DNA from: a virus
Reading direction: 5' to 3' (one strand)
Virus record (IMG/VR): IMGVR_UViG_3300003324_000290
Span: 1-21,373 of that record
Length of the DNA: 21,373 nt
Positions within the stretch are counted from its first letter, which is position 1; each line of letters starts with the position of its first letter. A program made the position numbers and the translations under genes. Shown here in pieces: positions 3,961 through 21,373 of this stretch. Below the pieces are notes generated by a model, which did not search any database, had not been told where the DNA came from, and saw only the letters and a list, made by a program, of their open reading frames with translations.

Positions 3961-6900
3961 TTAACTTGGAGAGGTTGGGTTCTCCTTTTGCTCTTCCTGC
4001 TGTAGGTTTCGCTTCAAGTCTTCAAGCCGTTTTGGAACTGAAGGTGGAAGAGTGTCTAGTGAAAGTGTCAAGCTGTCTGGCTTGTAGTCAATTCGTACAA
4101 TCTGCATAGTTACATCATCAACGAAGTTACCGAAGTTTGTGAATCCAACCAACTCGCCAAGCTTAATGCTCTCAATTGGGTACACCTTGTCGCTAATTGT
4201 AATCTGGCTGCGGTAACGAGGGTCTTTATAGCGGTCAATCAAGCTGTCAACAATAATGTCAGCTGATTCATATAGCTTAACTCGTTGGTCGGTAACTCTC
4301 TGGAGTCCTCTGCGGTAGTCGCTAATTGAGGTTGCATCTGTGTACTTCCTAAAGATGTTGGTTGCTGCGTTTGTATCGCTAACCGTGTAGAAGTTGTCTA
4401 TGTGAAGTCCAGTCGTATCTGTAAGGACCGCTGCTGACCTGAATCCACTGAGTCGCCCTGACGGGATTGAGTTATCAGTCACGTCAATTACAACCGTTCC
4501 TGCAACGACCACGCTAATCTTGTTCGCGAGCATTCGAAGCTCGATGTGCTTTGTAGTTCCGTTTCCTGGGTCTGCGTACGCACTCGTTCCAAGACTTGTA
4601 AATGAACCAGCAACGCACTTGTAAAGCTGGACCTGGTTTGAGCCAGGCTGGATTCTCGCCATGTAGAATGTCAACGCTGACGGTTGAACGCGACCAATGA
4701 TACCGAAGTCAGCCGTATATGAAAGCTGGTAGTAGTCTGCGTGCACTGAGTAATCATCTGAAAGTGATTGACCACTTGCGATAAAGACGTTTTCAACGCC
4801 TCCAGTTCCAGATGGACGCACTCTCTCAGAGTCGGTGATGACATATGTTGCTGTTGCGTTAGCGTTCGGGTGTCTTGTCCAGGTTGCTCCAATAGCACCA
4901 ACGTGAGCTGATAGGTCGGTTCCTGCGATGTCGCTAAACACATCTTGGACGAATGGGTTAAGAGCTCCACCTGTAAAGTAAACAACGTTGGTTAAGTCCT
5001 CGATGTATTTCTCAAGGTTCAACTCTGTAATGTGCTTACCAAGAATAAACGTATGAGCAGGTGTTGACGGACGAGGGTGAAGGTGGACGTAGTTGGTTGC
5101 CATGTCGTAGTACCAGAACCAGTCGGTCGGTGAAAGCTCAAGACACTTCTTAACAACCTCAAGAATCGTGTTCGTGTTGAAGGCATATGTAACAACCGTG
5201 TTACTGTTCTCAACCGTGTTAGTCTCAGTTTGAAGAGCTACTAGGTTAGCTGGAATGTCGTCAGTAAACGTTCCATTAGTCAGTGTCATGTTTGCTCCAG
5301 TTTGTGAGCCAGAGTTAGCGACCACAAATCCGTTGTTCTCGTCAAACTTGTACCACAGCTTTGGAGTCGCTGGGCGAGTGTTCGTGTTGTAGAGAGCCGT
5401 TACTTGAGTCGAGTTGAGAGCTGAATCGAAAATCATTAGCTCGTCAATCTTACCCTTAAACTTCTGACTCGTTGCAGTACGTCCACCAATTCGTCTAATT
5501 GAAGAAGCTGATGAGAAGTTTGTCGTGTTGACGACTGCACCAGGAGCTGTTAAGGTCTTGCTTACTGCATTAACGTAGATTGTGTGGTTGTTTCCTGTAC
5601 CGTTTCGAACGTAGACGATGTGATTCCAAGCTCCGGCCGTTAATGAGTTGTTTGCAACCACGACACCCGTTCCGTTGATGAGTACATATACAGCATTCGT
5701 TTGTGAGGCTTCTGATGTTGGACCGACCTCGATTTGGAATAATCCAGCCGTGTTATCACAACCGTAAATAGTCTGTCGTGAACCAAGTGAGTCTGGGTAA
5801 ACCCAAGCTGCAAACGTGAAGATGTTAACGTTGGTAAGTCCAAGCGTATGAGCAGAGTTGCTAACAGCATGGCTTGTTCCCGTTCCCTTAAGCTTGAGTG
5901 CTGTATCGTTGTGGAAGTATGTTGGGATTCCTCCGTCGGCGTTAAAAACGTCGAGAGCATTTCTCAAAATCATTCCTGGGTCAAGACTTTCGTAGCTTAC
6001 ACGAGTAGCTCCTCCAGACTCAAGGACGTAGTTGTCCATGTCTGCTCCGTAGCTGAACAGAGTCACTTTTGTGTTTTCGTCTCGACCGTACTGTGTAACG
6101 TAGCGTGAAATGTAACCGGTAAAGACTACAACTCCCTCAAGTGGAGCGTCGTCGTAGTACGCTGTGATTACAACATCCAAGTTGAGGTCAACGTTTGTTC
6201 CAGGACCAATCGCGTTAATTGTCTGAGTTTCTGCAAGGATTGTGTTATTACTGTCAGTTAAGAATGGGTCAGACGTGTCGTCTGCCAGGACGTCGAACTC
6301 ACGGAACTGAGAATCGCTGTTTCGAGCTAGAGTTACCTCGATAGCAGAACCACCAGAGTTGATTTCCTGGCTAATGTTAAGCTCACTGATGACGTCTGTC
6401 CACTCACCTAAGTAAGCGTGGGTATCTGGGTTGTAAATCTTGTAACTGTAGATTTTTCGGTCAAACGTGTTCTGGACGTGAAGAGGACTACCGTTGACAG
6501 AGCCACTAAATAATATCGTACCTGATATATCTCTGTACGCATCTAGCTCAGGACGGTCAGCTCCACCTGAGAATAATATCGTTCCTGATATTGAACCAGA
6601 CCTAGTTGAAATGTTGAAGTTATCGTACTTTGCTGAGACTGATGTACTGTTGTCAGTGTTGTTCCACGTTCCAGCGCTAAACTCAACCGTTAAGCTAGAT
6701 AGGTTGATTGGAGGAGCTGCCGACGTGAAGATGTTCCAGGTTGTGAAGTTAGAGCTGTACTCCCAGTATAAAATGCCACCGTTTTCACGAAGCCTAATAA
6801 ACTTATGAGTTGCCGGAACGTAAGCGACGTTCGACAGGTCACTTCTCGTTCCAGCCACCTTCTTGTATGCTCGAATTGTGTTCTGAGTTACGAAGAAACC

Positions 6901-8226
6901 AACCTCATTAGTTGAGTCGACTCGCATGAGGAAGAATGCTTCCCAGTTGTTGAAGCTCTGGTTTCCCATGTCGACAAGCTGTACCCAAGCCTGGCTTCCG
7001 TAAAGCATGTATCTGTTGTCAGATGTTGCGCCTGAGTAGACTTGAGTTAAAGCTGGACTTGTTAGTACAAGGTTGCTTCCAGAGACTGAGTAGTTGTTGT
7101 AACCGTCCCAAAGTGATGTGTTGAAGGTATCAAATCCATCGCTAATCGTACTTACAAGCGGAGGTGGAGCTGTGAACGTCCAGCCAGTGTTTCCACTGAC
7201 GTTCGTTGAGTGTGTTCCTGCGTACCAAGCTGTCGGTCCGATTGCATGGTTGTCCTTGATTGAGAGGTAGTCTCCTGAGATGTATCCCTGGTTTGAGTAA
7301 AACTCAGCGTAGTTGCCAGCAAGGTTCGTGTTAATCGTAACCAAGTTGCCACTGGTTCCAGAGATAGTCGCAGGACCGTTAATGTTAAGCTTGAATCTGT
7401 TACCAGCGTGGACCGCACCGGTTGTCAGTGTTGTACCAGGCTCAAGCTCTAGAGCATTAACCGTGTTGTTTAAGTTGTAATCGCTTGTTCCAACATAGAT
7501 TGGAATGTTAAGAACACCGCTTCCTGCGTTGTGAAGCTTACCATATGTCTTATCAGCACCACCAAACGTCTTTGATGATGAGCCGTAGAATCGAATCGTT
7601 GCGCTTGCAGCAGACGTTGTTCTATTTGGGTTCGCGTCAAAGGCTGTCTGAATGTTAATTACAGAGGCACCAAGCGTCAACTGTCCAGCGTCATGGCTAA
7701 TACCGTCCCAAGCGTAAACATCGACGTTTTGCCCGTTCGTGTCGATGTGTCCTGAGTACAGTCTAACGCTTAATGGACTTGTAAGAGCGTCCTGGAATAC
7801 CCACTTTGTTCCTCGTGGAGTGTTTTCGTTGAACTTAATCTCAGTGTTGAACAGCGTACCATTCCATGTGATGTTCTTCGTTGAGTTTGAGTTGGTCTGC
7901 TCATAGAAAAACGGAGCTGCAACCGTGTTGCCACCAGTGAAGTAAATGTTGCTGTTACCGTAATATGTACCATGGACGAAGAACCTGAATGTGCTGTTAA
8001 TGCTAATTGTTGCGAAGTCATCTAGGTTTTGAGCTGAGAAGTTTCGAACGTTAACATCGTTTGAGCCAACTGTAATCGTAAACGTACCAGCACTTGAGTT
8101 CTGGTCAATAAATACGTCGTCTGCAGAAGTTGGGACACTAGCACCAGAGGCACCTCCACTAGTAGAGGACCATTTAGTTGTGCTAGTCCAGTTACCTGAA
8201 CCTCCGACCCAGTACCTATTGGCCAT
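3961..8226 (-). CDS. Large tail hub (Gp37-like) with beta-rich N-module and inserted lectin-like domains
   Basis: The protein has 1421 residues. Residues ~1-355 are a beta-rich module opening with RYWVGGSGNWTSTTKWS and ending TNVSGNTGW, common on phage tail and surface proteins. Residues ~360-540 form a ConA/laminin-G-like sandwich (FDTFN..LWDG...FFLMRVDSTNEVGFFVT). Residues ~546-579 hold two copies of SGTILFSG. Residues ~590-770 begin a siphovirus ReqiPepy6 Gp37-like hub domain. A second LamG-like domain (~775-950) and a third sandwich (~1093-1283) are inserted before the last hub segment (~1287-1393: RVTDQRVKLYESADIIVDSL ... LGELVGF). The C-terminus is a charged Gln/Glu-rich tail. It would form the tail tip and bind glycans or other surface polymers. 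ATG with GGGAG inside the end of the preceding gene. Confidence 0.8.
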   Translation of the reverse strand: MANRYWVGGSGNWTSTTKWSSTSGGASGASVPTSADDVFIDQNSSAGTFTITVGSNDVNVRNFSAQNLDDFATISINSTFRFFVHGTYYGNSNIYFTGGNTVAAPFFYEQTNSNSTKNITWNGTLFNTEIKFNENTPRGTKWVFQDALTSPLSVRLYSGHIDTNGQNVDVYAWDGISHDAGQLTLGASVINIQTAFDANPNRTTSAASATIRFYGSSSKTFGGADKTYGKLHNAGSGVLNIPIYVGTSDYNLNNTVNALELEPGTTLTTGAVHAGNRFKLNINGPATISGTSGNLVTINTNLAGNYAEFYSNQGYISGDYLSIKDNHAIGPTAWYAGTHSTNVSGNTGWTFTAPPPLVSTISDGFDTFNTSLWDGYNNYSVSGSNLVLTSPALTQVYSGATSDNRYMLYGSQAWVQLVDMGNQSFNNWEAFFLMRVDSTNEVGFFVTQNTIRAYKKVAGTRSDLSNVAYVPATHKFIRLRENGGILYWEYSSNFTTWNIFTSAAPPINLSSLTVEFSAGTWNNTDNSTSVSAKYDNFNISTRSGSISGTILFSGGADRPELDAYRDISGTILFSGSVNGSPLHVQNTFDRKIYSYKIYNPDTHAYLGEWTDVISELNISQEINSGGSAIEVTLARNSDSQFREFDVLADDTSDPFLTDSNNTILAETQTINAIGPGTNVDLNLDVVITAYYDDAPLEGVVVFTGYISRYVTQYGRDENTKVTLFSYGADMDNYVLESGGATRVSYESLDPGMILRNALDVFNADGGIPTYFHNDTALKLKGTGTSHAVSNSAHTLGLTNVNIFTFAAWVYPDSLGSRQTIYGCDNTAGLFQIEVGPTSEASQTNAVYVLINGTGVVVANNSLTAGAWNHIVYVRNGTGNNHTIYVNAVSKTLTAPGAVVNTTNFSSASSIRRIGGRTATSQKFKGKIDELMIFDSALNSTQVTALYNTNTRPATPKLWYKFDENNGFVVANSGSQTGANMTLTNGTFTDDIPANLVALQTETNTVENSNTVVTYAFNTNTILEVVKKCLELSPTDWFWYYDMATNYVHLHPRPSTPAHTFILGKHITELNLEKYIEDLTNVVYFTGGALNPFVQDVFSDIAGTDLSAHVGAIGATWTRHPNANATATYVITDSERVRPSGTGGVENVFIASGQSLSDDYSVHADYYQLSYTADFGIIGRVQPSALTFYMARIQPGSNQVQLYKCVAGSFTSLGTSAYADPGNGTTKHIELRMLANKISVVVAGTVVIDVTDNSIPSGRLSGFRSAAVLTDTTGLHIDNFYTVSDTNAATNIFRKYTDATSISDYRRGLQRVTDQRVKLYESADIIVDSLIDRYKDPRYRSQITISDKVYPIESIKLGELVGFTNFGNFVDDVTMQIVRIDYKPDSLTLSLDTLPPSVPKRLEDLKRNLQQEEQKENPTSPS
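6509..6591 (-). repeat. Two near-identical 20-bp direct repeats encoding SGTILFSG motifs
   Basis: Plus-strand positions 6509-6528 and 6572-6591 differ at a single base (AATAATATCGT then A or T, then CCTGATAT). They lie 63 bp apart, in frame, inside the tail hub gene. They encode two copies of the ISGTILFSG segment with a 21-residue period, between the first lectin-like domain and the hub domain. They look like a linker duplication. Confidence 0.8.
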
Positions 8227-14997: not shown

Positions 14998-17103
14998 TTA
15001 GCTTACGCCGGGAGCCAAGATACCTGCAACACGTGTTGGGTCGGTGATAGCACCACCTCGGAAGAAGCTTCCTCGGAGAACCAACTCGTTGCGCTGGTAG
15101 GCAGACTTCACTTGACCACCGTCTTCGTAAGAAGCTTCGGTGCTTAGGTCGTACTGTAGACCACCGCTTGTTCGACCTGTGAACTTGCTCAAGTCAGCGT
15201 AGAACACAGCGTGGTTAACTGTAACTGTCTGACCCTCGACTGTGAAGCTAACTGTAGCTGCAGTGTCAAGGCTTGGAAGCAAGTCGTCGCTTACGATGAT
15301 GTAAGGTCGTCCGAACATGCGAGGCTGGTCGCCTGTAGTGAAGATTTGTGAAAGTGGACCACTGATTCCTGCTCGTAGTGCGTAAGCAAGAATGCTTGCG
15401 TAGCTAGAGTTGTTCAGGATGAAGGTACCGTTTGGTGTAGTTTGAGCGATTTGAGCGTAGGCCTGTAGAAGCGATACCAAAGCTTCAACAGATGGGTTAG
15501 TGTCGTAAACAACACTGTTGCCGTTGCCCTCGACTGCCTGCTCTAGGCGTGCTACAACGAGCTGAGCTCGCTTGCGGTCGTAGTCGTTTCGGTAACCAGC
15601 TGCAACGTCTGACAGAAGGTCAACTGCTAGGAAACGAGTAGCGGCGTTACAAACTGGTGTAACAGCAGCAAGCTCGAATAGGTTAGCAGTGTCGATTTCT
15701 GCACCGTATTCACTGATTGGCTTTAGGTTACCGTCGTTATCGTCGTCGCAGAACTCAACTTCTTCCATTGAGATGTCACCGCTACGAGTAATCCAAGCCA
15801 TTTGTGTGCTTAGAGTCTCTTTCCAGTTGGTAGCGTTTACAAGTGGGGTGTAGTCGTTTCTGTTACCTTCGATGTCGGTAAGCATTTCCTGGCTAATGAC
15901 GAAGTTGCCGAAGTCAGTGATGGTCATAGAGTTCTGAACCAGACCCTTTTCCTTCAAGCCTTCAAGGTTTACTTCGTTAATAGCGTTGAGCTCTGCCCAC
16001 TTGCTCTGGTCGTGACGCTTCAGGATGTCCCAAGCAGCGTTAATCTGCTTGCCGTGGCGCTCTTGCCAGCTCATTGAGGCGAACTCGTTCTTAGCGTTCT
16101 TCACGCCGTTGTCTTGCTTTTTGAACTCAGGCTTCTTAGCACCTTTGTCGAAAGCAGACTGCTCAAGCTTAGTCATTTGCTCTTGCATTGGCTTCAAAGC
16201 GTTTGCAATCAGCTCAGCTAGCTTGTTCTCTGAAACTCCGCCCTTTTCCTCGTCGTCACCCTTGTCGTCGTCACCAGCTGGTGCAGGTACTGCAGGTGCT
16301 TCAGCGTCGTTGATTTGCTTTTCAACACGCTCTTGCTGGTCGCTGCTGACGTCTAGAGTAGCGTTAGGAGCAAGCTCGGTCTCTACCGTGTCTCCGGCTG
16401 CGTTAGTGTAGCTGATTTTAACAGCGAACTCACGGCCGTTCTTGATAGTTACGAAAGTCATTTCTTCCTTGTCCTTATCGTTATTATTGTTATTCTTGTC
16501 GGCGTCCTCTTCCTTCTCACCCTTGTGAGTTTGCTCAATCTTGATGTCTTTTTCCTTAGCATCAAGCTCGAGTTCCTTCTCAAGTTCTGAAGTATCGAGG
16601 CCGTCTTCCTTGGCTTGCTCAATTGAGTTGCGCACAATTGAGTTGACTGTAGCTGACTTGTTATTACCAACAACCACCTGGCTTAACCCGATGAGTTTCG
16701 CGTCCTTGTAGACTCGGTCTTCCTCGGTTGGCCATGGGCCATACGTTTCGATAGAAAAGTTTGTTGGTACCTTAGGGCTCAGCAATAGGTTGTACGCTAA
16801 CCGAGCAAGTGGATTTTCCTTGACAAGATAGTTAATCTTTTTTACTATTACCTTGCTTCCAACCTTAGAAAGGCCTTCAACTCCAGCAATAATGTTTTCA
16901 AGTCTATCAAAGTGGTCTGCAGTTACCTGACCGCCGTACTCTGATAGGTCCATGCTCTTGATGTCGTACCTAGTGCCGTTTCGCTGCTCAGAGTTGTCAC
17001 TAATGACCAAACCTCGCGGAAACGATACTACGCCATCGCCTTCATCAACAAAAGCGTTCTTCTCAACGAGCACGCCTACATGGTTTTTGACAATCTTTGT
17101 CAT
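14998..17103 (-). CDS. Prohead protease - linker/scaffold - HK97-type major capsid fusion protein
   Basis: This 701-residue protein has three parts. Residues ~1-165 look like an HK97-type prohead (U35) serine protease. His64 (TADH) and Ser117 (TNFSIE) have the same spacing as the catalytic pair of that family, and a GLSQVVVGNNKSA segment at ~139-151 matches its usual ELxEVSxVxxPAN strand. Residues ~165-335 are acidic and low-complexity, with a run of five Asn and a predicted coiled coil (LAELIANALKPMQEQMTKLE), fitting a scaffold or delta domain. Residues ~340-701 are the major capsid protein, with the typical late region GRPYIIVSDDLL followed by the basic/aromatic end of the fold. Many phages encode protease and capsid separately. 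Fusions are known, and self-processing would release the shell protein. An internal start at 16461 could add a protease-free form. ATG start; TAA stop at 15000-14998. Confidence 0.88.
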   Translation of the reverse strand: MTKIVKNHVGVLVEKNAFVDEGDGVVSFPRGLVISDNSEQRNGTRYDIKSMDLSEYGGQVTADHFDRLENIIAGVEGLSKVGSKVIVKKINYLVKENPLARLAYNLLLSPKVPTNFSIETYGPWPTEEDRVYKDAKLIGLSQVVVGNNKSATVNSIVRNSIEQAKEDGLDTSELEKELELDAKEKDIKIEQTHKGEKEEDADKNNNNNDKDKEEMTFVTIKNGREFAVKISYTNAAGDTVETELAPNATLDVSSDQQERVEKQINDAEAPAVPAPAGDDDKGDDEEKGGVSENKLAELIANALKPMQEQMTKLEQSAFDKGAKKPEFKKQDNGVKNAKNEFASMSWQERHGKQINAAWDILKRHDQSKWAELNAINEVNLEGLKEKGLVQNSMTITDFGNFVISQEMLTDIEGNRNDYTPLVNATNWKETLSTQMAWITRSGDISMEEVEFCDDDNDGNLKPISEYGAEIDTANLFELAAVTPVCNAATRFLAVDLLSDVAAGYRNDYDRKRAQLVVARLEQAVEGNGNSVVYDTNPSVEALVSLLQAYAQIAQTTPNGTFILNNSSYASILAYALRAGISGPLSQIFTTGDQPRMFGRPYIIVSDDLLPSLDTAATVSFTVEGQTVTVNHAVFYADLSKFTGRTSGGLQYDLSTEASYEDGGQVKSAYQRNELVLRGSFFRGGAITDPTRVAGILAPGVS
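16459..16474 (-). promoter_or_regulatory. Candidate internal translation start in the protease-capsid gene
   Basis: An in-frame ATG at 16461-16459 (Met215 of the fusion) is preceded by ACAAGGAAGAA, a good AAGGA Shine-Dalgarno site four to six bases away. It lies exactly at the junction of the charged linker (KDKEE) and a new folded-looking segment (MTFVTIKNGREF). Starting there would give a 487-residue scaffold-capsid protein without the protease. The site may be chance, since the linker is rich in Lys and Glu codons that mimic such sites. Confidence 0.4.
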
Positions 17104-17190
17104 GTAGACCTCTCATATTAAGTTGCCACAGGACGCGTTATCTTGGCATTTCTCGTATGCTCTTGCAGGCGATAAAAGTTCGCTCTTAGC
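17104..17190 (-). promoter_or_regulatory. Capsid gene leader with Shine-Dalgarno AGAGG
   Basis: This non-coding stretch lies between the promoter-like motif and the ATG at 17103. It is part of the largest intergenic gap in the window. It ends in GAGAGG five bases before the ATG, a usable ribosome-binding site. I see two weak hairpins but no terminator, riboswitch or further gene. Confidence 0.4.
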
Positions 17191-17971: not shown

Positions 17972-20900
17972 TTAGTCCTCTACTCTAATTATAACATTCT
18001 GGTCCATTGACTCTAGCACCACGTATTGAGTGGTATCGCTCTCAAGGACGAATGATTGGTCCTCGGTCTCGAGAGTGACGTGAACTGAAGTTAATGGAGC
18101 TCCGTTAATGAATGCGTCTGTGGTGTGGCTTACCAAGTTCGGTGCTGACTTGTTGGTATCAGTTGTGTGGTAAACACTGCTAACCTTTCGCTTGTTGGCG
18201 TCAGTCGAGTGCTGGACAGTGTGGCGAGTTGTAGTTGTCGCGTCAGTCGTGTGGCTTACAGTGTTCTGAGTCCTCAAAGCTGAGTCAGTCGTGTGGCTGG
18301 TTGTATTTGCCTTGCGCTTAAGAGCGTCTGTCAAATGGAGCTTACTGAAGACCTTTCTCAATAGTGAATCTGTCGTGTGAGAAAGCTGATTAGCTTTTCG
18401 CTTCAAGGCGTCAGTTAAGTGTGATACTGTCAAGCGTCTCTTCTTCAGAGCGTCTGTAGTATGGAAGACGGTTAATCCAGCCTTGCGCTTATTCGCATCG
18501 GTTGTATGCTGGACCTGGTTAGCACCACGCCGGTAAGCGTCTGTGGTGTGGAAGACTGTGTTTCCAGCCTTCTTCTTGTTTGCGTCCGTTGAGTGGCTAA
18601 CTGTGTTTGCTTTTCTCAGAAGCGAGTCAGTTGAGTGTACTAGAGTATTGACTGCTCGCTTGAGTGCGTCAGTTAGGTGGTTTACCGTGAATACCTTGCG
18701 CTTGTTACTGTCGGTCGTATGGCTAACAACGGTTCTTGCTCTCTTCAGAGAATCTGTAGTATGAGAAACAGTCGTTGCTTTTCTCTTGTTTGAGTCGGTA
18801 GTGTGGGTCAACGTGAGACGACGTCGTAAGAATGCGTCGGTAGTATGGAAGATTGTGATTGCTGCACGCTTCTTGTTCGCGTCGGTAGTATGGCTTACGG
18901 TTGTAGCTTTACGCTTGTTCGCATCAGTGTTGTGGCTTCGGCTTGTTGCAGAGTAGAACAAGGCGTCCGTGTTGTGAGATACCGTAAAGCTCTTCTTCAA
19001 GTTCGAGTCAGTCGTGTGCTGAAGAGTGTTTGCAGACCGTAGAAGCGCGTCAGTAGTATGGCTAACTGTTATATCAGCTTTCTTTTTATTAGCGTCAGTG
19101 CTATGGCTTACTGTGTACGCTCGGCGCTTGTTTGAATCGGTTGTATGTGAAACTGTCTGAGCTTTTCTCTTGTTGCTGTCTGTAGTGTGAGACAGAGTCA
19201 AGCGTCGGCGTAGAAGCGCGTCGGTAGTGTGAACGACTGCAGTTATTGTTCTCTTGAGCGCATCGGTTGTATGAGACAGGGTATTTCGTGTTCTCTTGAG
19301 CGCATCTGTAGTGTGGCTAACAGTATTGTTTGCCTTTTTCTTATTGGAGTCAGTGGTATGAGAAACGGTGTATGCTCTCTTCTTGTTCGAGTCCGTTGTG
19401 TGTGAAACTGTGTAGGCACGCCGTTTATTAGCGTCTGTTGTGTGAGTTACGACGTTGGAGCCTCTCAAGAATGAGTCTGTGGTGTGAGTGAGAGTAAGTC
19501 TCTTTCGAAGCAGTGCGTCGGTCGTATGGCTTAGTGTGTTGACGGTTCTCTTAAGAGCGTCAGTTGTGTGGCTGACGATATTGTTCGCTTTTTTCTTGTT
19601 CGCGTCGGTTGAGTGAGCAACGGTATACGCTTTTCGCTTATTAGCGTCTGTCGTATGGCTCACTAGGGTGACGCGTCGCTTGTTCGAATCCGTAGTATGG
19701 CTAAGTGTATTAGCTTTGCGTAGAAGTGAGTCTGTGGTATGCGAGAGAGTGTTGAGGGTACGCTTCAAGGCGTCTGTCGTATGACTTACGGTCTTAATTG
19801 CTCTCAAAAGGGCGTCAGTGGTGTGCGTTAGGACAAGGTTACTCTTTTTCTTGTTGGCGTCGGTCGTATGAGTGACCGTGTTGTTCGCTTTCTTCTTATT
19901 TGAGTCTGTAGTATGTGAAAGCGTGCTCTGCTTGCGCTTTAGAGCGTCCGTAGTGTGAGTAATCGTGTAAGTGACCAAAGCTGGGGTCAAGTAAGCGTCC
20001 GTCGTGTGGCTCAGGGTGTTTCGAGTGCGCTTCAAGGAGTCCGTAGTGTGAGTTACGGTATTGTTGGCCTTCTTTTTGTTCGCATCTGTCGTGTGTGATG
20101 TTGTAGTAACTTTTCTCAGGTTAGCGTCGGTGTTGTGGCCAACCGTGAACTGCTTTCGTTTCAACGAGTCAGTAGTATGTGTTACAGTATTGCTCTTTCG
20201 CTTGAGAGAATCAGTCGTATGAGACAGGCTGAAGAACTTTCGCTTGAGAGCATCAGTTGTATGTGAAAGTGTAAGTCGCTTTCTCAACAAGGCGTCTGTA
20301 GTATGAGTCTGGGTGTACTGTCGTCTCTTGTTAGCGTCCGTACTGTGTGAGACTGTGTAAGCCTTGCGCTTATTGGAATCTGTGGTGTGAGTTAGAGTCG
20401 CTTGCTTTCTCTTAAGTGCGTCAGTGGTGTGTGAAATTGTTAGTGTCTGCTTCCAACCTGAGACGTTTGTTCCAGTGAACCCAGTGCCTCGAAGCCACGA
20501 AGCACCGCCGGTCGCGATGTTGTTACTGATTGTAAGGTAGTTACCGGTGTTGGTTCCTGATGAATCACTGAACGTGAACTGTCCAGAGACGTTCCACCTG
20601 TTCATTGTCACGACGTGGCCAGACGTACCGTTGAAGTTCCACGTTGAACCAGTATATGTGCTTGCACTATCGAAGGTGATATTTGTGTCAGGCTCGAATG
20701 ACCAAGTTGCAGCGGTAATTGAATTGTAGAACTCAACGCCGCTTAGTCCTGAAGTTGACTGGATAGTTATGCTGTTAACGTCTGTTAGGTTGTTACCGAA
20801 GTCGAGGTATCCCCAGCCGCCGAATCCAGACAGGTTAGACCCGTTGTAGACGATGTCGAGGCCAGATTCAACCGGACCAGTATCCCACTGGCCGAACCTA

Positions 20901-21373
20901 TCGTTAATTGTGATTGTTCCGCTTCCAACTAGTTGTCCGCCGTCAGCATACAGGTTGTTAACGTTTAGGTCGTACCCGTTCATGTCGAGCACAGCGCTTC
21001 TTATCCAGGTATAGAACTCGCTTCCAGTTCCCTCTTGGTAGAGGTCACTTTGAAGAATGAACGAACCAGTTGTCGCATTTTGGTCGATTCGGATGTGGTT
21101 GTGCTGGAACGGTATTCCCTTGGTGTCAATCGTGTACTGGTTGTCGTCCTCTGCGATTGCCCACAGGCCAAGGTTCGTTAACGACATTGAGCTTGAGAAG
21201 ATGACATTTCCGTGAACTGTCATGTAGTAGTCTTCACCTTGAAGCGTGAAGGTTTGGTCTATAGCACTTGAGTCGAAGCTCTTAACGTCGATGGTGTCAC
21301 CAGTCGCGTCAACAGTTGAGCCGTCACTACTAAACGAGTTCGCGTCAAAGATAACGTTCTCTGTGTAGGTTGG
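17972..21373 (-). CDS. Giant HTTD-repeat fiber/adhesin-like structural protein, 5' end cut by window edge
   Basis: The frame is open from the last base of the window to a TAA at 17974-17972, giving at least 1133 residues. An in-frame ATG at 21223 exists but is probably internal: the 50 codons before it have no stop and continue the same domain. The first ~310 residues are a Gly/Asn/Thr-rich, beta-rich module that resembles the N-terminal module of the tail hub at 3961-8226 (PT..(D/E).V.(F/I)D.NS at the start, then a VHG motif, GNYLTISNN versus GDYLSIKDN, and TNVSG-W at the end). Next come 783 residues of 55 tandem HTTD units, then a 36-residue acidic, beta-like tail. I see no signal peptide, membrane segment or enzyme motif. 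It is probably a virion fiber or surface protein. Its place just upstream of the capsid gene suggests the head, but a tail or cell-surface role is possible. Function is inference; the repeat structure is seen directly. Confidence 0.85.
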   Translation of the reverse strand, partial: PTYTENVIFDANSFSSDGSTVDATGDTIDVKSFDSSAIDQTFTLQGEDYYMTVHGNVIFSSSMSLTNLGLWAIAEDDNQYTIDTKGIPFQHNHIRIDQNATTGSFILQSDLYQEGTGSEFYTWIRSAVLDMNGYDLNVNNLYADGGQLVGSGTITINDRFGQWDTGPVESGLDIVYNGSNLSGFGGWGYLDFGNNLTDVNSITIQSTSGLSGVEFYNSITAATWSFEPDTNITFDSASTYTGSTWNFNGTSGHVVTMNRWNVSGQFTFSDSSGTNTGNYLTISNNIATGGASWLRGTGFTGTNVSGWKQTLTISHTTDALKRKQATLTHTTDSNKRKAYTVSHSTDANKRRQYTQTHTTDALLRKRLTLSHTTDALKRKFFSLSHTTDSLKRKSNTVTHTTDSLKRKQFTVGHNTDANLRKVTTTSHTTDANKKKANNTVTHTTDSLKRTRNTLSHTTDAYLTPALVTYTITHTTDALKRKQSTLSHTTDSNKKKANNTVTHTTDANKKKSNLVLTHTTDALLRAIKTVSHTTDALKRTLNTLSHTTDSLLRKANTLSHTTDSNKRRVTLVSHTTDANKRKAYTVAHSTDANKKKANNIVSHTTDALKRTVNTLSHTTDALLRKRLTLTHTTDSFLRGSNVVTHTTDANKRRAYTVSHTTDSNKKRAYTVSHTTDSNKKKANNTVSHTTDALKRTRNTLSHTTDALKRTITAVVHTTDALLRRRLTLSHTTDSNKRKAQTVSHTTDSNKRRAYTVSHSTDANKKKADITVSHTTDALLRSANTLQHTTDSNLKKSFTVSHNTDALFYSATSRSHNTDANKRKATTVSHTTDANKKRAAITIFHTTDAFLRRRLTLTHTTDSNKRKATTVSHTTDSLKRARTVVSHTTDSNKRKVFTVNHLTDALKRAVNTLVHSTDSLLRKANTVSHSTDANKKKAGNTVFHTTDAYRRGANQVQHTTDANKRKAGLTVFHTTDALKKRRLTVSHLTDALKRKANQLSHTTDSLLRKVFSKLHLTDALKRKANTTSHTTDSALRTQNTVSHTTDATTTTRHTVQHSTDANKRKVSSVYHTTDTNKSAPNLVSHTTDAFINGAPLTSVHVTLETEDQSFVLESDTTQYVVLESMDQNVIIRVED
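17976..17996 (-). promoter_or_regulatory. Putative extended -10 promoter (TGTTATAAT-N5-TAG) before the 114-residue gene
   Basis: On the minus strand this reads TGTTATAAT, TAGAG, TAGAGGA. The TATAAT is at 17993-17988 and lies inside the last codons of the repeat-protein gene. The AGAGGA at its downstream end also serves as the Shine-Dalgarno site for the ATG at 17969. It has the TGn extension of an extended -10 promoter, and no clear -35 is visible. It is one of six similar sites in the window. Confidence 0.5.
18083..20431 (-). repeat. 55 tandem 14-15-residue HTTD protein repeats (42-45 nt period)
   Basis: I counted 55 units beginning H-(T/S/N/L)-T-D, spanning 783 residues. Forty-four units are 14 residues long, ten are 15 and one is 17. 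The general form is HTTD-(A/S)-(N/L)-(K/L)-(R/K)-K, then four or five variable residues, then T-(V/L)-(S/T). By hand count the array has 138 Lys+Arg, 56 Asp, no Glu and no Cys, so net charge is about +82 before counting His. Two unit types recur: N-type (ANKRK/ANKKK) and L-type (ALKRT/ALLRK). The 15-residue units are nearly all of the ANKKK kind. Codons for the invariant residues vary from unit to unit, so the repeat is much clearer in protein than in DNA. Confidence 0.97.

Follow-up and report, generated by a model that had tools for sequence, protein, structure and literature searches.

Genes that fuse a protease to a capsid protein pose a puzzle of stoichiometry, for a head needs hundreds of shell subunits and few copies of the protease. 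In the herpesviruses, a protease of the same fold class as the one considered here heads a scaffold (UL26) that it shares with a shorter form (UL26.5), which is made separately and is abundant. UL26.5 has its own separate transcript, and the capsid protein is also separate, unlike the gene described below. In lambda, purified gpNu3 presumably has about 131 amino acids, a size that would fit M309 as its start in gene C. The lambda record (J02459) annotates C and nu3, and here, as in our locus, a protease gene contains an in-frame internal start, in this case giving the scaffold alone. The only ATG of gene C with a canonical Shine-Dalgarno (SD) word (at least 4 nt of AAGGAGG at a gap of 4-13) is M309 (AGGAGG, gap 4; L124 in our set), not the annotated nu3 start, M239. 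Further, the lambda nested product stops at the scaffold and the shell protein, E, is separate, whereas the product predicted below includes the shell.

HK97 (gp4/gp5), like the present gene, carries its scaffold, delta, as an N-terminal part of the shell protein, so that scaffold and shell are fixed at 1:1 (PMC10275583). HK97 differs from our locus in having the protease as a separate gene (portal, protease and mcp genes were expressed). Protease and capsid do occupy one gene, as here, in the annotated fusions of Arthrobacter clusters AM, AU and AN and Rhodococcus RRH1 (PMC5513430), Rhodobacter RcC (PMC8601537) and Gordonia EpicDab (PMC9671378). The fusion descriptions in the accessible parts of these three articles do not mention an internal start at the junction; the EpicDab article does remark on an ATG, but one that precedes the protease rather than lying at the junction. 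A search of the open-licence PMC literature for an internal start in protease-capsid fusions returned no report, and none is annotated in the fusion records that we fetched.

We analysed a stretch of viral DNA of 21,373 nucleotides, hereafter the window. From its sequence and those of its relatives, we judge it quite probable that its protease-capsid gene is a nested gene with dual initiation, in which Met1 would open the protease fusion and Met215 a scaffold-capsid protein, an arrangement that would set the protease:capsid ratio.

Architecture of the fusion gene

The earlier note on this DNA had read one frame of 701 residues at 14998-17103, comprising a protease with His64/Ser117 features, an acidic linker and an HK97-type shell. 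The frame is real but lies on the minus strand; on the plus strand the frame of the ORF is full of stops. Both domains fall within one uninterrupted ORF (Table 1). The model of the protease is closest to T4 gp21 (5jbl; Z 13.3, rmsd 2.5 over 136 residues), with herpesvirus proteases next (best Z 5.8, rmsd 4.0, 108 residues). These model comparisons support a prohead protease of the herpesvirus/T4-gp21 type. The candidate catalytic residues His64 and Ser117 are invariant across 24 aligned protease domains.

Met215, the A of which is at 16461, opens a product of 487 residues and is preceded by AAGGACAAGGAAGAA; directly 5' of it the strand reads ATAAGGACAAGGAAGAA-ATG. The AAGGA said to precede this ATG at the linker boundary is present, in fact in two copies. 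The model of the 487-residue product (pLDDT 78.8) runs from a small beta domain through a disordered acidic stretch and a helix to an HK97-fold shell. In relatives, the beta domain begins M(K/T/D)(F/Y)VT(I/V)KN. The shell model matches 8em6 (VIA; Z 17.5, rmsd 3.3, 250 residues) and HK97 itself (2fs3, VIA; Z 15.6, rmsd 4.1, 239 residues). The HK97-type shell of the earlier note is thus borne out in the model (Foldseek, VIA), which supports its assignment as an HK97-fold major capsid protein. The window protein matched none of the Pfam Peptidase_S78 and Phage_capsid, PHROGs or NCBIfam profiles; Pfam Phage_capsid was matched by 2 of 17 relatives, plus L057.

Other features of the window deserve mention. 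Upstream of the protease-capsid gene lies a very long ORF (17972-21373, minus strand; at least 1083 codons, 5' open), the sole match of which is a weak one to a PHROG of unknown function. A 1421-residue protein with a concanavalin-like (Laminin_G_3) domain, encoded at 3961-8226 (minus strand) and following the tail genes, is a possible host-binding protein. A search with PF03237 found no terminase in the window's record.

Table 1. Features of the protease-capsid gene in the window, with domain folds taken from models.
Feature	Position	Strand	Remarks
Fused protease-linker-capsid ORF, 701 aa	14998..17103	-	fused in 28/30 non-truncated family rows, window included
SD of full-length start (Met1), GAGAGG	17109..17114	-	GAGG, gap 5
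Protease domain, residues 1-170	16594..17103	-	AlphaFold model pLDDT 84 (residues 1-200)
His64, candidate catalytic	16912..16914	-	invariant in 24 aligned sequences
Ser117, candidate catalytic	16753..16755	-	invariant in 24 aligned sequences
Acidic linker, residues 171-214	16462..16593	-	C-terminal end is the SD-encoding KDKEE
Internal SD, AAGGACAAGGA	16466..16476	-	2 AAGGA copies, gaps 10 and 4 nt to ATG
Internal start ATG, Met215 (site A)	16459..16461	-	family: Met in 29 rows, SD in 23/29
Predicted short product, 487 aa (beta domain, delta-like helix, capsid shell)	14998..16461	-	
Small beta domain, product residues 1-51, first residue Met215 (MTFVTIKNGREF...)	16309..16461	-	pLDDT mostly >90
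Delta-like helix, product residues 79-107	16141..16227	-	site B of other relatives lies just before it
HK97-fold shell, product residues 176-487	15001..15936	-	Foldseek 8eci, E 1.8e-13

Candidate internal starts in relatives of the window gene

In phage records, tblastn with the window protein found no relative, and the head-gene neighbour as query found no phage relative. The relatives studied here were drawn from IMG/VR and MAG contigs. Eight of 40 rows were dropped (the near-identical L009, L010 and L029-L033, and the capsid-only fragment L018), which left a family of 32 dereplicated rows, the window included, with 80% identity in the closest pair. L041 and L045 are contigs of L082 and L088, respectively, and L042 and L054 are cut by contig ends. 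The gene is fused in 28 of the 32 rows, truncated at contig ends in two (L015 and L017) and unfused in two (L035 and L036).

Two internal positions recur in this family. At site A, which lies at the protease end, 29 rows (all but L015, L035 and L036) share an in-frame ATG, and 23 of the 29 have a canonical SD there. Site B directly precedes the delta helix; its in-frame ATG occurs in 15 rows, all 15 with an SD. The loci with site B, which mostly reads MT..E, are L007, L011, L013-L017, L019-L021, L028, L035, L036, L082 and L088. For comparison, an SD precedes 2 of 151 Mets in eleven other conserved Met columns. What is conserved at the domain junction is an in-frame start with a ribosome-binding site, as in lambda C/Nu3. 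The earlier note had let its proposal depend on the conservation of both elements in relatives, and both are kept across highly diverged linkers. It had also supposed a single internal site; site A was confirmed, but many relatives have site B as well, which on sequence grounds would predict a third, shorter nested product, possibly made in part of the family.

The unfused rows offer a counterpart to the nested product. In L035 and L036 the capsid ORF opens, with its own ribosome-binding site, inside the acidic coil (the homologous linker), and site B is retained. Part of that coil (in L035, VDKINEDGSIKVTVEGEKVTLEPAGEE) is similar to the linker sequence that follows site A in L011. The protease of each lies kilobases downstream on the same contig in an ORF of its own, of 195 and 234 codons when counted from the first ATG. 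ORFs with FRGV...STS...NEV-like motifs lie near the capsid gene (L035:2652-3323 and L036:1790-2743), and they look like ADP-ribosyltransferase-type phage proteins. A separate observation concerns L091, where an unfused protease ORF ends ...GGPGSGNHNP-TGA (2190-2215); the related L036 ORFs continue with Gly (SGNHNPG.GRGVGKPG). Past this TGA the L091 frame has no stop for roughly another 100 codons, which points to either a broken C-terminal extension or read-through.

A competing explanation is that only the full-length fusion is made, that free capsid arises from it by autoproteolysis at 1:1, and that the ATG and SD are by-products of an E/K-rich linker. SD-like words are indeed common in such linkers, which alone yield AGGA-like words at 16% of positions. 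Sites A and B had initially been chosen by eye, and on that account a test over an alignment-defined region was added. Among all in-frame junction ATGs of the family, 41 of 73 have an SD 4-mer; codon positions drawn at random from these linkers would give 12.2, and synonymous resampling 20.6 (maximum 30 in 500; P 0.002, the floor of the test). Outside the junction such ATGs are depleted (22 of 302, where the synonymous mean is 29.1; P 0.024), and in 23 other long ORFs, drawn from 20 of the loci, an SD precedes 14 of 160 ATGs. Both the excess and the depletion argue against a by-product. An energy-based SD test that used the extended anti-SD had been the main test at first. It picked up a conserved GD-Met within the capsid (column 900) too, and gave weak results when codons were resampled synonymously (Fisher p 0.015 for site A and 0.09 for site B); the canonical-word test took over after the data had been seen. 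All of these P values are overstated, because the sequences within a family are related.

A natural control is provided by genomes that seldom use SDs, a habit measured for each locus on its own genes. L002, L003, L023 and L034 have an SD on 0-12% of genes, and have none at site A and none at Met1, an absence that a linker by-product would not explain; the site-A Met itself is still kept. Of the 24 genomes that do use SDs, 22 have one at site A (L027 and L077 have no canonical one), versus 0 of 4 low-SD genomes (Fisher 7e-4 with L026, which has only two genes, left out; p = 3e-3 if L026 is counted as low). The site-A SD tracks SD use in the genome, and the internal site therefore follows the genome's own way of starting genes. 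Local folding is weaker at sites A (-4.65 kcal/mol) and B (-3.60 kcal/mol) than at other in-frame ATGs (-10.83 kcal/mol), a difference that is confounded with, and partly explained by, the A-rich linkers.

Independent protease-capsid fusions

Twenty-eight further fusions were assembled, five named in papers and 23 hand-picked for diversity, not at random, from tblastn hit lists. They span S78-type and ClpP-type proteases (Ostro and Psul1 among the latter) and include MT835495, which has no annotation; the unfused FP_Epona was excluded. The junction window, from the protease end to +160 codons, was fixed before the 23 were fetched but after Circum, Gordon, Maggie, RRH1 and RcOceanus had been examined. 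As first noted, it began at the motif end +5 and took ATG/GTG; as tested, it began at the motif end, with ATG and GTG kept separate. Protease ends were taken from Pfam for the ClpP type and from a motif chosen by eye for the others.

The five phages examined beforehand all have an SD-ATG at the junction; the predicted internal start is M165 in Circum, M160 in Maggie and M214 in RcOceanus. Over the whole set, an in-frame ATG with an SD falls in the junction window in 23 of 28 fusions, or 25 of 28 if GTG is counted (Lactococcus 1706 GTG171, AAGGAG; PensacolaC28 GTG216, AGGAGG). Emperor, SallySpecial and Shewanella phage 1/44 have no canonical SD start in the junction. The human gut phage MT835495 has both site A and site B, each with AAGGAGG. 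In 20 of 28 genes the best internal SD-ATG lies within the junction window (expected 26%; p 6e-7). In Emperor (L108) and SallySpecial (L115), which belong to the same genus, the protease is instead preceded by a strong internal SD-ATG, akin to one that the EpicDab article (PMC9671378) describes in a same-cluster phage.

In this set, the by-product explanation gains from the fact that the encoded residues alone predict a 4-nt SD in most of the 28 fusions; for an SD of at least 4 nt there was no synonymous excess (23 versus 20.9 genes, P 0.10, range 0.10 to 0.33). An SD of at least 5 nt precedes 20 of 81 junction ATGs versus 6 of 234 elsewhere (p 1.4e-8), and the synonymous null gives 12.1 for junction ATGs (P 0.002) and 11.7 for the others (P 0.006). 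In a control on 17 other long genes from five of these phages the count was 3 of 137. Among the 14 most diverged fusions, a subset of our own choosing, 10 were seen versus 5.2 under that null (P 0.002). An SD precedes junction ATGs some 2- to 5-fold more often than expected from position within the junction. We regard the by-product explanation as improbable.

Another possibility is that a Met/Glu/Lys motif is kept as a feature of the protein, for instance as the point at which a protease cuts between protease domain and linker. A cut at that position would be useful, but the residues near the Met vary widely (KDKEE, KEEVK, SEELD, KEQA), the SD falls in different codon phases, and independent fusions have the SD word in common rather than a peptide motif; we give this explanation very little weight. 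The junction Met might also be a relic, the now unused start codon of a capsid gene that formerly stood alone. This would suit the unfused L035 and L036 and FP_Epona, in which protease and capsid are separate genes 13 nt apart, but is hardly credible when Met and SD persist beside linkers diverged beyond alignment, when the SD tracks genome habit, and when both site A and site B are retained, the latter even with an unfused protease.

A probable nested gene for protease and shell

Initiation at an internal start is thus the reading that we prefer. It draws on a conserved site that matches the SD habit of the genome, on an unfused counterpart, and on recurrence in independent fusion families. 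Initiation at Met1 would give the protease-scaffold-capsid fusion, and initiation at Met215 the scaffold-capsid protein without the protease. The long and short forms would co-assemble in the prohead through their common shell domain; as both products share that domain, the fusion would enter as a minority subunit. The built-in protease could then cut the linkers and delta parts in place, free itself and remove the scaffold. The ratio of start rates at Met1 and Met215 would set the protease:capsid ratio, the protease being the part needed at low dose, and the short product would be the more abundant and would set the stoichiometry. In part of the family, starts at site B would add a third form, and with it a graded choice of scaffold length.

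We extend this proposal, with moderate confidence, to a rule. Every lineage of protease-capsid fusions, whatever the class of its protease, would keep or re-evolve a start at the junction, and the relative strengths of the starts would determine how much protease each head receives (and, where site B exists, how long its scaffold is). Such genes would never be truly 1:1; each would conceal two or three products, and would be wrongly annotated across the databases. Possibly new with respect to lambda C/Nu3 and herpesvirus UL26/UL26.5 are the ending of the nested product in the shell protein and the general rule behind it.

The data indicate one general answer to the stoichiometry puzzle of fusions, and this answer is directly testable in cultured phages such as Circum, Maggie, RcOceanus and Lactococcus 1706. 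If it is true, the annotation of many deposited phage genes changes; our four tblastn hit lists hold 82, 244, 144 and 87 records, which overlap and are not all fusions. Moreover, the nested-scaffold logic of lambda and the herpesviruses would then extend to the shell protein itself.
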